From: a virus
Virus record (IMG/VR): IMGVR_UViG_3300025438_000118
Span: 1 to 26,336 of that record
Direction: 5' to 3' (one strand)
DNA: 26,336 nt
The stretch's first letter is position 1. Every line of letters starts with the position of its first letter. Positions 13-25,888 of the stretch are shown piece by piece. The translations under genes were made by a program, and so were the position numbers. The notes under the pieces are model-generated. The model had not been told where the DNA came from. It saw only the letters and a program-made list of their open reading frames with translations, and did not search any database.

Positions 13-189
13 ATGACATACGAGCAAAAAATGGAATCAACAGTTTTGCAACCTGAAGTTAAAACTACACGGCTTAATGCCAACATCAAGATAGAGTTAC
101 ACACGGCATTAAAAATCAAAGCCGCAACCGAGGGAACAACCATTGGGGCGCTGATTGAGGAGTGGATAGTGAGCTTAGGTCAAAAATAA
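13..189 (+). CDS. Small ribbon-helix-helix (CopG/ParG-like) DNA-binding protein
   Basis: A 58-residue protein with an AGAGGAA ribosome binding site just before the ATG. Residues about 19-29 (RLNANIKIELH) form the basic beta strand expected of a ribbon-helix-helix protein. Two short helices follow: HTALKIKAATEG, then IGALIEEWIVSL after the typical TT turn. Such proteins act as dimers that place a two-stranded sheet in the DNA major groove, usually as repressors or as part of plasmid and phage regulation. The first 17 residues are a flexible extension. It is the first of a same-strand run of small genes, so it may regulate this early cassette; its operator is not identified. Fold assignment is fairly sure, target unknown. 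Confidence 0.75.
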   Translation: MTYEQKMESTVLQPEVKTTRLNANIKIELHTALKIKAATEGTTIGALIEEWIVSLGQK

Positions 190-246: not shown

Positions 247-513
247 ATGGCATATGAACAACGCGACAACTCAGGCTCACTTTTCAAAAATGACCGCAAA
301 GAAAAAGAAACCCACCCAGACTACAAAGGCACTTGCATGGTTGGTGGCGTAGAAATGTGGATGAGCGCATGGTCCAAAACAGGCGCAAACGGCACGAAGT
401 TTATGTCGTTCAGCTTCCAGCCCAAAGACCAGCAGCAGTCTGCAACGCGTCAAGCACCGGCGAGTCAGGCTCCACAGGCAGAGCCTGACTTCATAGACGA
501 ATTGCCGTTTTAA
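247..513 (+). CDS. DUF736-like phage protein with SSB-like acidic C-terminal tip
   Basis: An 88-residue protein, start supported by AAGGA ten bases before the ATG. The N-terminal two thirds (NSGSLFKNDRKEKETHPDYKG, then GGVEMWMSAWSKTG and KFMSFSFQPKD) resemble small DUF736-type proteins common in phages and plasmids, probably a compact beta fold. A Gln/Ala/Pro-rich linker follows and the protein ends in DFIDELPF. That end resembles the DDIPF-type tip by which bacterial single-stranded DNA binding protein recruits exonuclease I, PriA, RecO and other repair proteins. The architecture of small beta domain, disordered linker and acidic-hydrophobic tip matches SSB layout. A role in DNA metabolism or as an SSB-tip mimic is inference. 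Confidence 0.72.
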   Translation: MAYEQRDNSGSLFKNDRKEKETHPDYKGTCMVGGVEMWMSAWSKTGANGTKFMSFSFQPKDQQQSATRQAPASQAPQAEPDFIDELPF

Positions 514-522
514 AGGGTAGAC

Positions 523-675
523 ATGTGGCCTTACATATTCGCCGCGTGGATAATATCAGCGTGGTTGACACATATCATCACCTGCCTGCTGGATGGCTCG
601 TGGGGCTTTTTAATAGCAGGTGCGCTGTTGTTCCCAATCGCCTGGGTACACGGCACGCTAATCTGGTTTCAATAG
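523..675 (+). CDS. Small membrane protein, two predicted helices
   Basis: A 50-residue, very hydrophobic product with AAGGG six bases before the ATG. Two membrane segments are visible: residues about 3-20 (PYIFAAWIISAWLTHIIT) and about 28-46 (FLIAGALLFPIAWVHGTLI), separated by the short polar turn DGSWG. It sits 9 bases after the DUF736-like gene and its stop overlaps the AGGAG of the next gene, so the three are probably co-transcribed. I do not recognise a family. Small inner membrane proteins of this kind in phage early regions include superinfection-exclusion and host-takeover factors, but nothing here selects one of these. Confidence 0.65.
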   Translation: MWPYIFAAWIISAWLTHIITCLLDGSWGFLIAGALLFPIAWVHGTLIWFQ

Positions 676-684
676 GAGTAAATA

Positions 685-822
685 ATGGAAAAAGAACTTA
701 AAGAATACGTCAGCTTGCGCGTACCAAAGCCACTGCACACCAAGCTGGTTTCCCTTGCAAAGCAAAATGAGCGCTCGTTGACTGCTCAAATCGTGTTTTT
801 GCTCAAAAAAGCAATAGGGTAA
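685..822 (+). CDS. Arc-family ribbon-helix-helix protein
   Basis: A 45-residue protein with a clean AGGAG seven bases before the ATG. After a short acidic start, residues 8-13 (YVSLRV) give the basic beta strand. Helix A is PKPLHTKLVSLAKQNE and helix B is SLTAQIVFLLKKAIG. The RVPKPLHTKL and ERSLTAQI motifs are typical of the Arc-like DNA-binding family (P22 Arc repressor is the prototype, 53 residues). It likely dimerises and binds an inverted repeat. A long inverted repeat begins 27 bases after its stop and is a candidate target, although an RNA role for that repeat is also possible. This is the second ribbon-helix-helix gene within 700 bases. Confidence 0.78.
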   Translation: MEKELKEYVSLRVPKPLHTKLVSLAKQNERSLTAQIVFLLKKAIG

Positions 823-848
823 ACACCTAGAAAAACAGCTTAATAAAC

Positions 849-903
849 CTCCTGTTTGTCCTGCATTTGTGTGTAGAATAAATACAGGACAAACAAACAG
901 GAG
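849..903 (+). promoter_or_regulatory. Imperfect inverted repeat burying a ribosome binding site
   Basis: Left arm 849-863 (CTCCTGTTTGTCCTG) is complementary to right arm 885-903 (CAGGACAAACAAACAGGAG): 15 base pairs, interrupted only by four extra bases from a tandem AAAC in the right arm, with a 21-base loop. The last five bases of the right arm, AGGAG at 899-903, are the ribosome binding site of the gene starting at 912, and they pair with CTCCT at 849-853. Folded RNA would therefore block translation of that gene. There is no T-run after it, so it is not an ordinary terminator. It could instead be an operator for the neighbouring ribbon-helix-helix protein. Confidence 0.6.
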
Positions 904-911
904 AAAGCAAA

Positions 912-1019
912 ATGGACTTTGATAGTCAAGACGAATACGAGGAATACCTAGAGGCTGGTCAAGAGCGTGAAGACTGGGAACACGAGCAACATGACGTTGA
1001 GAAAGACAGAAATGAATAA
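912..1019 (+). CDS. Tiny acidic protein of unknown function
   Basis: A 35-residue, highly charged product (MDFDSQDEYEEYLEAG, then QEREDWEHEQHDVEKDRNE) with no cysteine, no hydrophobic core and strong negative charge. It is probably one helix, or disordered until it meets a partner. Its start has AGGAG eight bases upstream, held inside the predicted hairpin at 849-903, so expression may be controlled at translation. Its stop lies inside the start of the next gene, which points to coupled translation. I do not recognise it; acidic phage peptides sometimes inhibit host DNA-binding proteins, but nothing here shows that. Confidence 0.5.
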   Translation: MDFDSQDEYEEYLEAGQEREDWEHEQHDVEKDRNE

Positions 1020-1122
1020 TTTACTAAAAACACTAGGTGTAGGCTCATGGTTTGAGCTGGGTGCAGTGGTCGCGATAGCCGTTACTATTGCGGGTTTGAT
1101 TGTTTTGGAGTTGAGCAAATGA
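1012..1122 (+). CDS. Single-span small membrane protein
   Basis: A 36-residue protein whose ATG lies eight bases before the end of the previous gene. Residues about 17-32 (GAVVAIAVTIAGLIVL) form one clear transmembrane helix preceded by a short polar segment and followed by ELSK. There is no strong ribosome binding site, so translation probably depends on coupling to the upstream gene. Its stop TGA shares bases with the next ATG (ATGA). Function is unknown. The hydrophobic segment and the overlaps at both ends are the reasons to accept so short a gene. Confidence 0.5.
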   Translation: MNNLLKTLGVGSWFELGAVVAIAVTIAGLIVLELSK

Positions 1123-1298
1123 GCACTAATGGAAACGTAAACCCGACCAGGTACACTGGTGACTTCAAATCTACGCTTGAGCCACGGGACTTTAGCTCAA
1201 CTCCTGTTCGAGCGGGCAGCGAGGAAAACCTAGCTTTTCCGTCTCGCGTTGGCAGGTGGCTGTTTTATCGTGATGGCCGAAAGGTGCTTGTGAAATGA
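1119..1298 (+). CDS. Hypothetical 59-residue protein
   Basis: Begins in an ATGA overlap with the preceding stop and ends in another ATGA overlap with the next start, a pattern hard to explain unless the frame is used. The N-terminal half is polar and rich in Thr, Ser, Asn and Pro (TRYTGDFKSTLEPRDFSS). The C-terminal half is basic and aromatic (SRVGRWLFYRDGRKVLVK) and could bind nucleic acid or membrane. No known domain is recognised and no function is proposed. Confidence 0.5.
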   Translation: MSTNGNVNPTRYTGDFKSTLEPRDFSSTPVRAGSEENLAFPSRVGRWLFYRDGRKVLVK

Positions 1299-1456
1299 TT
1301 TACAACACCGGCAAGGTCAAGATTGGCCTGCATTACACGCCACCAGTACGACCTGCGGATATTGGCCGTGACATGATGCTCTTGCAGACAGCGTTATTGG
1401 CCAGGCCAAAGACGCTGTGGCAACGCATTGCCCGCTGGTTGGAAATTGATTTATGA
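1295..1456 (+). CDS. Hypothetical 53-residue basic protein
   Basis: Starts in an ATGA overlap with the previous gene and ends in an ATGA overlap with the zinc-ribbon gene. The sequence opens with MIYNTGKVKIGLHYTPPVRP and continues with DIGRDMMLLQTALLAR and a basic amphipathic helix, PKTLWQRIARWLEIDL. The Tyr-Thr-Pro-Pro segment followed by helices is seen in some small phage proteins, but I cannot name a family. The coding call rests on the nested overlaps and an uninterrupted frame. Confidence 0.5.
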   Translation: MIYNTGKVKIGLHYTPPVRPADIGRDMMLLQTALLARPKTLWQRIARWLEIDL

Positions 1457-24124: not shown

Positions 24125-24322
24125 TTAGCCATAAGTTTTCATTAGTGAATCAGCCATTTCAATGCTCATAACGGCAACCATCTCAACCCTAAACTTTTCT
24201 GGATTTGGCACGCCTTGCTGTCGTTTAATTGCCTTGGCTTTGTGAATGTATAAGCAACCCTCCATTGGAGAGCCATCGTGGTCATGCACAACACACCATC
24301 TTTTACATGGAAGTATTTTCAT
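24125..24322 (-). CDS. Hypothetical 65-residue protein
   Basis: The open frame extends to 24340, but the start at 24322 forms ATGA with the methyltransferase stop. Product MKILPCKRWCVVHDHDGSPM, then EGCLYIHKAKAIKRQQGVPN, then a helix (RVEMVAVMSIEMADSLMKTY). The paired CKRWC, HDHDG and C segments could bind a metal ion, but no family is recognised. It is the third gene of the ParB, methyltransferase, small-protein series. The same frame continues open for 34 codons after its stop, with protein-like composition (see findings). Confidence 0.6.
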   Translation of the reverse strand: MKILPCKRWCVVHDHDGSPMEGCLYIHKAKAIKRQQGVPNPEKFRVEMVAVMSIEMADSLMKTYG

Positions 24323-25374
24323 ACGCCTACTTTTAACCACTGGTCACGGACTGCACAAGCTACCGCCTCTGTCATCTTAGGAGGTACACTCATGCCAATC
24401 ATGTACTTACCAATGTTGTTTGATTTAGCCTGATAATCATCTGGGAATGAGCCAAGCCGCTTCCACTCTCTATAAGTTAACTTCCTGCATTTATCCCAAT
24501 GCCTAATAACATCCGTAGCAGTAACTGTTACTGATGGTTTTTCTTTATTTAATCTAACCATGTTAAATCCTGATGGTTTACCTCGTAACCTTTCCCATTC
24601 TTTAGAATAACTGCTGCCAGGCTTAGTGCCTGGCCAAAACTGAATGTCTGTTGCGGTTGCTTTGGTTTCTTTTAGCTCATCATCAGTTAATGCCTGCAAG
24701 TCTTGAGTAGCCTCTCCTGCGCTAATCCATTTATGAGTTGGGGTTAGCTTTAGCGGCGGCACATTAATATCATTGCGAACAGCGCAAAAAAACACACGTT
24801 CTCTACGCTGCGGAACCCCGCAATCAGCCGCGTTTAACAAAAACAACTGTGGCCTATAACCAAGCTCTTTAAACCTTTGCATAACCAATTTTGTATAGCC
24901 TTTAGCGTTTCCGATTAGCATACCTTTAACGTTTTCAGCAATAGCAACTTTTGGCTTTAGCTTGCCTACAAGGTCAAGATAATCAAAAAATAAGTCAGAC
25001 AATACTTGTTTAGATTGACCCTCCCTGAAATGCTTTTCTTTTCCCCATGATTTCTCACGGCTTCCTGCCATGCTAAATGTAGAACATGGAGGCGAACCGT
25101 CTAGAACATCAAGGTTATATAGCTCCTCAGGCAAATCTTTATTCAGCAATTCTCCAATAGGGCAAAGAAAGTAGTATTTAGGGTTAATATTTAGCTTGTA
25201 GTGCCACGCCATTTCTGGGTCTATGTCATTAGCAGCAATAACATCAAATCCAGCTCTTTTATAGCCCATGCTTGACCCGCCACCGCAAGCAAAGGTAGAC
25301 ATTACTTTTAAGTTGTGTTTAGGGATATTTTGTAGGTCTGCTATATCCCATGCGCAGTCTGGTTTATTTTTCAT
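24319..25374 (-). CDS. C5 cytosine DNA methyltransferase (Dcm-type)
   Basis: A 351-residue enzyme from ATG 25374; GTG at 25389 is an alternative start. It transfers a methyl group from S-adenosylmethionine to cytosine C5. Key motifs in order: motif I STFACGGGSSMGYKRAGF (about 26-43), an acidic NDIDPE for cofactor, motif IV GSPPCSTFSMAG with catalytic Cys about 97, motif VI AENVKG (about 146-151), motif VIII QRRERVFF (about 189-196), and a late motif X region, NNIGKYMIGMSVPP. The target sequence cannot be predicted. The start overlaps the ParB-like gene by 11 bases. Likely protects the phage genome against host restriction. It is solitary; no restriction endonuclease partner is seen nearby. 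Confidence 0.93.
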   Translation of the reverse strand: MKNKPDCAWDIADLQNIPKHNLKVMSTFACGGGSSMGYKRAGFDVIAANDIDPEMAWHYKLNINPKYYFLCPIGELLNKDLPEELYNLDVLDGSPPCSTFSMAGSREKSWGKEKHFREGQSKQVLSDLFFDYLDLVGKLKPKVAIAENVKGMLIGNAKGYTKLVMQRFKELGYRPQLFLLNAADCGVPQRRERVFFCAVRNDINVPPLKLTPTHKWISAGEATQDLQALTDDELKETKATATDIQFWPGTKPGSSYSKEWERLRGKPSGFNMVRLNKEKPSVTVTATDVIRHWDKCRKLTYREWKRLGSFPDDYQAKSNNIGKYMIGMSVPPKMTEAVACAVRDQWLKVGV

Positions 25375-25888
25375 CAAATTCAAACCCACATTTTGGACAC
25401 TGATGGCCTAACTTGTAGTCGTCTGGGTTAATTTCTTTAGAGCTGGTTTCAGGTGTTTCATTATTTGCAACGTATAAATTAAGTAAGCTGTTTATTTCAA
25501 TTTGCGTAAAACCTGTTAGCTCAAGATGCAATTCTGCAAGGTCGGACAGCTCTATCTTTAACAATTCATCATCCCACCCAGCGTTCAAAGCCAGCTTGTT
25601 GTCGGCAATGATGTAGGCTTTCTTTTGCGCTCCAGTAAGGTTTGTCAGCCGTATGCATGGCACTTCACCCAACCCTAGCTTACGCGCAGCCATAGTGCGT
25701 CCGTGGCCAGCAATGATGCCACCGTCTGCGTCTATCAATATAGGGTTTGTGAAGCCGAACTCGCGTATGCTAGCTGCTATCTGCGCGACTTGCGCGTCTG
25801 AGTGCGTTCTGCTGTTCCTGGCATAAGGAATTAGCGTTTCAAGAGCAATATATTCTAAATTGTTCCTGACTTTATCCATTGTCGTCAT
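25364..25888 (-). CDS. ParB/Srx-like nuclease-domain protein
   Basis: A 174-residue protein with GGAG six bases before the ATG. The ParB N-terminal domain is clear: IALETLIPYARNSRTHSDAQ, IAASIREFGFTNPILID, and the phosphate-binding GHGRTMAARKLG (61-72) followed by VPCIRLTNLT. The middle (IADNKLALNAGWDDELLKI) is typical of phage ParB-like proteins linked to DNA methylases. The end has CPKC (164-167), half of a zinc site. ParB domains bind CTP or ATP and some act as nucleases; many phage DNA methylases carry this domain fused at the N-terminus. Here it is separate but overlapped by the methyltransferase, suggesting joint action in genome modification. It is the first gene after the promoter candidate. 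Confidence 0.88.
   Translation of the reverse strand: MTTMDKVRNNLEYIALETLIPYARNSRTHSDAQVAQIAASIREFGFTNPILIDADGGIIAGHGRTMAARKLGLGEVPCIRLTNLTGAQKKAYIIADNKLALNAGWDDELLKIELSDLAELHLELTGFTQIEINSLLNLYVANNETPETSSKEINPDDYKLGHQCPKCGFEFDEK

Follow-up and report, generated by a model that had tools for sequence, protein, structure and literature searches.

A hairpin covering a Shine-Dalgarno sequence follows a small regulator gene in a family of water-dwelling bacterial viruses

Small genes are acquired and exchanged by phages all the time, which raises the question of how a newcomer is accommodated in an established timetable. We address it here in aquatic bacterial viruses of one family, in which a hairpin follows a small regulator gene. 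The window, i.e., the whole stretch of DNA analysed, is a 26,336-nt (26.3-kb) virus record, a fragment of a tailed phage. Its plus strand carries an early cassette of short genes (13-189, 247-513, 523-675, 685-822, 912-1019, 1119-1298, 1295-1456 and 1453-1656), which near 1.6 kb meets structural genes transcribed in the opposite direction. The hairpin at 849-903 (CTCCTGTTTGTCCTGCATTTGTGTGTAGAATAAATACAGGACAAACAAACAGGAG) stands between the fourth and the fifth of these genes, and we ask what it does for the gene behind it. The features concerned are as follows.

13..189, plus strand: RHH-like gene, ParG-like (Pfam 0.0013, below cut-off)
247-513, plus strand: ssb-like gene
685..822, plus strand: RHH (Arc/CopG-like) gene, 45 aa, with a PHROG Arc-like repressor match; candidate binder of the box
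815..829, plus strand: box TAGGGTAAACACCTA, a near-palindrome that recurs before other leaders in the same phages
848..863, plus strand: 5' arm of the hairpin, with the anti-SD CTCCT at 849-853 (from the fold and arm-swap tests)
874..879, plus strand: -10-like hexamer TAGAAT in the loop region of the hairpin, a putative promoter element
885..903, plus strand: 3' arm of the hairpin and leader (from the fold)
899..903, plus strand: Shine-Dalgarno (SD) sequence AGGAG, paired in read-through RNA according to its predicted P(unpaired)
912..1019, plus strand: cargo gene behind the hairpin, 35 aa, acidic, replaced or displaced in relatives

The gene at 685 is assigned to the RHH proteins by profile matches. 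Its product matches PHROG 228 (Arc-like repressor) at 4e-5; the window copy is weak in Pfam (RHH_5, 0.011, below cut-off) and its homologues in L045 and L038 lie above the curated cut-off. The product of gene 912..1019 had no family match in the profile search. Elsewhere in the window, a ParB-like protein and a DNA methyltransferase are encoded on the minus strand at 24319..25888 with a head-to-tail overlap (PHROG 3e-61 and 6e-72). GenBank phages share similar DNA with the window in structural-side genes only (68-72%).

The hairpin is confirmed as a conserved and unusually stable structure that covers the SD of gene 912. As the initial annotation had read from the letters, the predicted fold contains 15 pairs and a four-base bulge. 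The bulge lies on the 3' side and the loop has 7 nt; 6 extra pairs beyond a 1x1 mismatch, uncounted at that stage, extend it. The AGGAG at 899-903 is fully paired with CTCCT in this fold, again as proposed, with the ATG downstream at 912. The folding check that had been suggested gave -37.4 kcal/mol for region 830-960, compared with -21.4 (sd 3.3) for 200 dinucleotide shuffles (z -4.8; 0/200 shuffles as low), and the hairpin region is the most stable among 38 compared upstream regions of gene starts in the window. The view that the hairpin is not a terminator also held, as no T-run follows it and it is absent from the hits of a terminator scan over 600-1300. The scan explains the hairpin by neither a consensus promoter nor a terminator. 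A known Rfam RNA family was likewise ruled out as its identity, nothing having reached the gathering score in window 600-1300 or in 8 relative loci.

A search with the ssb-like protein returned 397 matching stretches, and the best 80 loci among them were kept. A collection of RHH genes made by HMM over all loci comprised 87 ORFs, 85 of them with enough downstream sequence; these 85 loci are overlapping pieces of about 45 records and contain 39 distinct elements, or 33 after merging of near-identical ones. Hairpins from bare palindrome patterns in unrelated contigs (e.g., L105, L107, L113, L121) were set aside. The element of the window type occurs in 21 records including the window, in 13 distinct versions, every one exactly 55 nt, which rules out the suggestion that the AAAC repeat at the bulge varies stem length between strains. 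Variation is concentrated in its inner arms, which change wholesale even among phages with a 100% identical RHH protein; the outer arms (CTCCTGTTTG/CAAACAGGAG) and the loop region hardly differ. The gene behind this 55-nt element varies as well: besides the MDFD gene of the window we found genes starting MTQF, MKVF, MANI, MKHY and MTKK, all beginning 6-8 nt past the same AGGAG. Distant relatives (ssb about 55-73% identity, RHH 34-55%) have a hairpin at the same spot whose stem differs (e.g., TTGTGTTGCGATGTGT..ACACATCGCAACACAA) but encloses the shared loop core TGTG..TANAAT. A MAG contig labelled Halieaceae from a different collection (L173), reached solely through its ssb gene, shows the same order: an RHH gene, then TAGGGTAATCCCTA, a hairpin (-25.1 kcal/mol) whose loop region contains TATAAT and whose AGGAG is paired, then another small gene. 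This one related contig is too thin a basis for naming a host, and a host search of GTDB contigs found no exact match to the box plus leader.

In the predicted folds, at least 3 of the 5 SD bases are paired in 33/33 merged versions, a count inflated because folding ended at the SD: shuffling of the 5' side leaves three or more SD bases paired in 58% of cases on average. Accordingly, the SD pairing is partly built in; the stability of the elements, with a mean z of -3.7 (range -1.8 to -6.2) against 200 shuffles of the 5' side in 14 representatives, does not have that explanation. In L028, L029, L035 and L037 the main stem stops just short of the SD.

RNAalifold run on a MAFFT alignment of the elements predicted no pairs because the arms do not align by sequence, and arm-swap permutations were therefore used instead. 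Natural combinations of arms from the 14 representatives fold at -23.9 kcal/mol compared with -19.7 for swapped ones, 2/20000 permutations being as low, and an earlier set of 12 representatives gave the same picture (-23.4 vs -18.8; 2/20000). Variants of the SD are matched by the facing arm: GGGGA stands opposite CCCC or CCC (L031, L038, L058), and AGGAG is faced by CTCCT or TCC. Single uncompensated arm changes exist (L014, L016, L044). Overall, the comparison of arms that had been proposed as a check favours structure and supports stems that are re-invented among relatives yet still pair.

A pairing of arms could also reflect a DNA operator, the inverted repeat being a protein site laid over a promoter and the RNA pairing incidental. 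The test of strand asymmetry, RNA against DNA, was negative, as this explanation would have it: among 27 distinct versions (L160, which does not follow an RHH gene, was left out of the arm-swap and strand set) the plus strand folds better in 15/27, and the strand difference is equal for natural and swapped arms (-2.38 vs -2.43). Dyads surround the -10 in some copies at operon heads (TTGGTGTGTGTTT..AAACACATACCAA, -16.8), and the ESAS repeats of cluster K phages are interpreted as DNA sites in the portion of PMC3203893 consulted. An operator does not, however, account for inner arms that change wholesale under an identical RHH protein and yet remain complementary, or for pairing that reaches the SD mainly at the RHH-downstream position; we regard it as unlikely. 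The more specific proposal, an operator of the Arc-like protein encoded just upstream, meets the same objection at the arms. The idea is better placed on the box at 815-829, since this box recurs at promoters without an SD-covering hairpin and tracks the RHH gene.

The dependence on position is pronounced. Copies downstream of the RHH gene have a mean of -23.0 kcal/mol, with the SD paired in 9/9 representatives; other internal copies average -11.0 (n=5) and operon-head copies -9.5 (n=9), with the SD mostly free (Mann-Whitney p 2e-4). Since the other internal copies mostly lack a strong lock, lying inside an operon does not by itself account for a gene's need of one. At divergent junctions of relatives, the box, then a -10, then the leader AAACACA..CAACACAACAGGAG head the early operon, and these head copies carry the box, a CATAAT-type -10 and the same leader as the RHH-downstream copies. 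Their spacing from box to -10 is about 22-24 nt, often with an extended -10, TATGYCATAAT.

Several further elements were seen around these sites. An extra dyad lies on the divergent side of the operon head at L128:4750-4790, with similar sites in G002-G004 and G009; the dyad TTGTGTGCAAATTTATTTTGCACAA of G001 faces a minus-strand gene, resembles the hairpin core and may be an opposite promoter. A variant of the box module with a longer leader and a second hairpin before the SD occurs at L148:2889, L154:2919 and L163:12191. On the minus strand of L122, a shorter hairpin of 39 nt at 1786-1824 (CTCCTGTTTGGTTATATTTATTTTATAGCCAAACAGGAG) lies immediately ahead of an ATG.

What, then, would open the hairpin? 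In all 39/39 distinct RHH-downstream elements the loop region holds a -10-like hexamer, and an SD and a start codon are present. In the 33 merged versions the hexamer is TAGAAT (15), TAAAAT (7), TATAAT (7) or TATACT (4) and starts 23-27 nt ahead of the SD; across 14 representatives, positions T35, A36, A38 and T40 are invariant. The presence of the hexamer in the loop of every element suggests that the lock is bypassed by transcription starting inside the hairpin. The window copy lacks a -35 hexamer at a spacing of 16-18 nt as well as a TGn in its customary position, and the consensus promoter scan of the window did not report a promoter at 874-879. A promoter with a good -10 and no -35 may be weak, or may depend on an activator bound to the box.

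We modelled the short RNA with its 5' end 12 nt past the start of the -10, which in the window places the predicted start near 886. The predicted P(SD unpaired) in the window is 0.02 in the long read-through RNA and 0.94 in the short RNA. Over the RHH-downstream versions the mean rises from 0.16 (long) to 0.65 (short) and is higher in 31/33; predicted release on shortening is seen in 12/14 representatives, the SD staying closed in the predicted short RNA of L032 and L059. For 25 other boxes the predicted accessibility of the SD is 0.45 in the long and 0.52 in the short RNA.

On balance we think that the hairpin probably acts as a lock on translation and contains a promoter that bypasses it, an arrangement of the kind known from T4 gene e and I-TevI. 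Read-through RNA from the early operon (ssb, the gene at 523 and the RHH gene) would carry both arms, so that the SD of gene 912 would be base-paired and the gene poorly translated. A promoter with its -10 at 874-879 would start a short RNA near 886 which, having no 5' arm, would leave the SD free and allow gene 912 to be expressed. A protein on the box at 815-829, most likely the RHH protein, would set the timing of this promoter, and the RHH protein would also act at the early-operon heads bearing the same box. The lock would thereby uncouple an interchangeable accessory gene from the surrounding operon. The start of transcription, the binding at the box, and the sign and timing of regulation are what we infer from sequence and predicted folds.

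Of the translational switch first proposed for this hairpin, the sequestration of the SD stands, as it recurs in all 33 versions with re-invented stems. The triggers then named (a ribosome, a protein or an antisense RNA) are probably wrong, given the hexamer in the loop of every element. A trans-acting opener, either a phage protein on the loop or an antisense RNA, would fit the conserved loop core and has a precedent in phage P22, where the sar RNA spans the arc-ant junction. There, too, an Arc-type RHH gene immediately precedes a gene that is subject to additional control of its translation, exerted by that antisense RNA. At the present locus, unlike P22 arc-ant, there is no sign of an antisense RNA: the window scan lists no antisense promoter nearby. 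Also, no Rfam match reached the gathering score, and the -10 element by itself accounts for the conservation of the loop. We therefore hold a trans-acting opener to be very improbable.

Cleavage of the hairpin by RNase III, or a similar enzyme, is another way in which a cargo mRNA might be separated and its SD exposed. A long stem with an internal bulge between genes of one operon, followed by no T-run and kept while its sequence varies, is what such a site would look like, and cleavage would account for operon-head copies that have no strong stem. It leaves unexplained the invariant hexamer and its almost constant spacing to the SD, the leader shared with the operon-head copies, and the box, and seems to us improbable.

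The box overlaps the stop codon of the RHH gene (820-822) and sits 44 nt before the -10 of the window; in many RHH-downstream copies this spacing is 42-46 nt, and in L151 and L167 it is 22. Its pattern was found at 29 sites, compared with 5 for a reversed-pattern control, in 50 of 56 intended records (L044, L071, L073, L075, L076 and L080 were left out). A strict box is present in 13/19 RHH-positive loci and in 0/28 RHH-negative loci with downstream sequence, a Fisher comparison that leaves out three box-positive records with 2-83 nt after ssb. Of the six RHH-positive loci that lack the strict box, five show a diverged but still recognisable one directly past the RHH stop, such as TAGGGTAATCCCTA; in the sixth, L043, the box is degenerate. 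The association may have its source in shared ancestry. The motif [YF]x[ST]xRx is found in all nine aligned homologues of the RHH protein, with R12 invariant, and corresponds to the strand that contacts DNA in Arc. The RHH protein encoded at 685-822 is the likely, still putative, binder of the box. The second RHH-like protein (13..189), encoded upstream of ssb, had 8 matches among the loci screened and is for that reason a less likely candidate.

The first gene behind the RHH-downstream copy belongs to 19 families, 4 of which also occur behind other box copies. This diversity raises the possibility of a cassette border, where box and leader would be a homology tract for an annealing recombinase that shuffles small genes, regulation being secondary. 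Two tandem cassettes, each with box and leader, indeed stand between the RHH gene and the MDFD gene in L022, and in G001 the same operon has a gene for an Erf-like annealing protein. A border, though, requires conserved sequence and not covarying arms, and the SD-covering hairpin is largely confined to one position. As a full account we consider a border quite unlikely; it is compatible with the lock-and-bypass model. In L008 (~2290-2315) and L010 (~2230-2257), where a cargo gene inserted behind the hairpin has displaced the MDFD gene, the latter has a new SD of its own, together with a short GGCTTCGGCC hairpin, just upstream.

We compared the arrangement with described systems. According to the sections of PMC3014915 and PMC2988022 used here, the SD of T4 e, soc, 49, I-TevI/II/III and segB, and of Aeh1 mobE, is hidden by a helix in the long RNA, and a late or middle promoter within or next to the 5' strand yields an RNA without that helix; these locks serve genes that lie within early operons, and several of these genes are mobile. 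The likeness lies in an upstream-initiated RNA that hides the SD and an internally initiated RNA that does not, here by prediction. More specifically, the SD is placed in a helix of the upstream-initiated RNA by the predicted fold, and a promoter whose RNA would omit the 5' strand may be marked by the invariant hexamer in the loop region, which in the window has no -35. The stem of T4 seg43(25) stops just before the SD in the portion of the T4 review consulted, as in L028 and L029. In contrast to T4, the phages studied here have no TATAAATA late promoter (gp55-dependent); the -10 in their loop is sigma70-like, an RHH gene and then a 15-bp box precede the hairpin, and the stem is re-invented between phages while the cargo gene changes. 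Judging by its hexamers (TAGAAT, TATAAT, TAAAAT, TATACT), the element would work like the T4 case without being a T4 late-gene hairpin.

A parallel for a repeated module of promoter plus SD is the ESAS/SAS of mycobacteriophages (PMC12699233, in the part consulted). As far as the consulted text of PMC3203893 and PMC11373665 goes, the SAS/ESAS of cluster K phages is repeated before gene starts in the non-structural half, ahead of different gene families, and ESAS is an inverted repeat with a SigA-like promoter followed by an SD-containing motif. The present module may be likened to it: several copies lie before gene starts, with a -10-like hexamer inside the repeat and no -35. The sequences differ, and direct reading showed the 13-bp SAS (GGGATAGGAGCCC, as defined in the consulted part of PMC3203893) to be absent at window 895-914. 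The arms of ESAS have no RNA-pairing support according to the statements of its authors consulted here, in contrast to the arms of the present element, which pair in the predicted fold. The parts each have a precedent, in T4 and in mycobacteriophage ESAS/SAS, and the fixed arrangement of RHH gene, box, hairpin and variable gene is new as far as searched: among the open-licence papers returned by the literature searches, none describes an RHH-linked hairpin of this kind, judged by titles and the beginnings of abstracts.

An unrelated phage record of 465 kb (G053, IMGVR_UViG_3300034072_000926) was met through the palindrome searches. It has at least six, probably more, SD-covering hairpins, six of them with exact CTCCTGTT..AACAGGAG arms and most before a start codon; several combine a -10-like stretch in the loop with an upstream TTGAC(A/T) as -35 (loci L110, L118, L169-L172, L175-L179, L188, L198). 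In sister promoters at L187, L190 and L193-L195 the sequence is TCACCT, and these seem to have no lock. Thanks to the -35, reading the element as a promoter is easier there than in the window, and G053 is a separate and possibly cleaner case of the promoter-in-hairpin mechanism.

Taken further, and only tentatively, the RHH gene, box and hairpin may form a standard socket for accessory genes, in which the stem is rebuilt in each lineage to fit the local SD and whose plan arose separately in T4-type phages and in the 465-kb phage. If so, a small gene landing behind the lock would be silenced in read-through RNA and placed under an RHH-controlled internal promoter, and cargo could be swapped without re-engineering its regulation. 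Promoter-in-hairpin locks would then be a general solution for newly acquired phage genes, and their signature, a -10 in the loop and an SD in the 3' arm, could be used to look for accessory genes of phages that have not been cultured. A leader of the lock-and-bypass type, kept in place under a changing downstream gene, would be a concrete answer, testable with reporters, to how phages fit new genes into an existing timetable.
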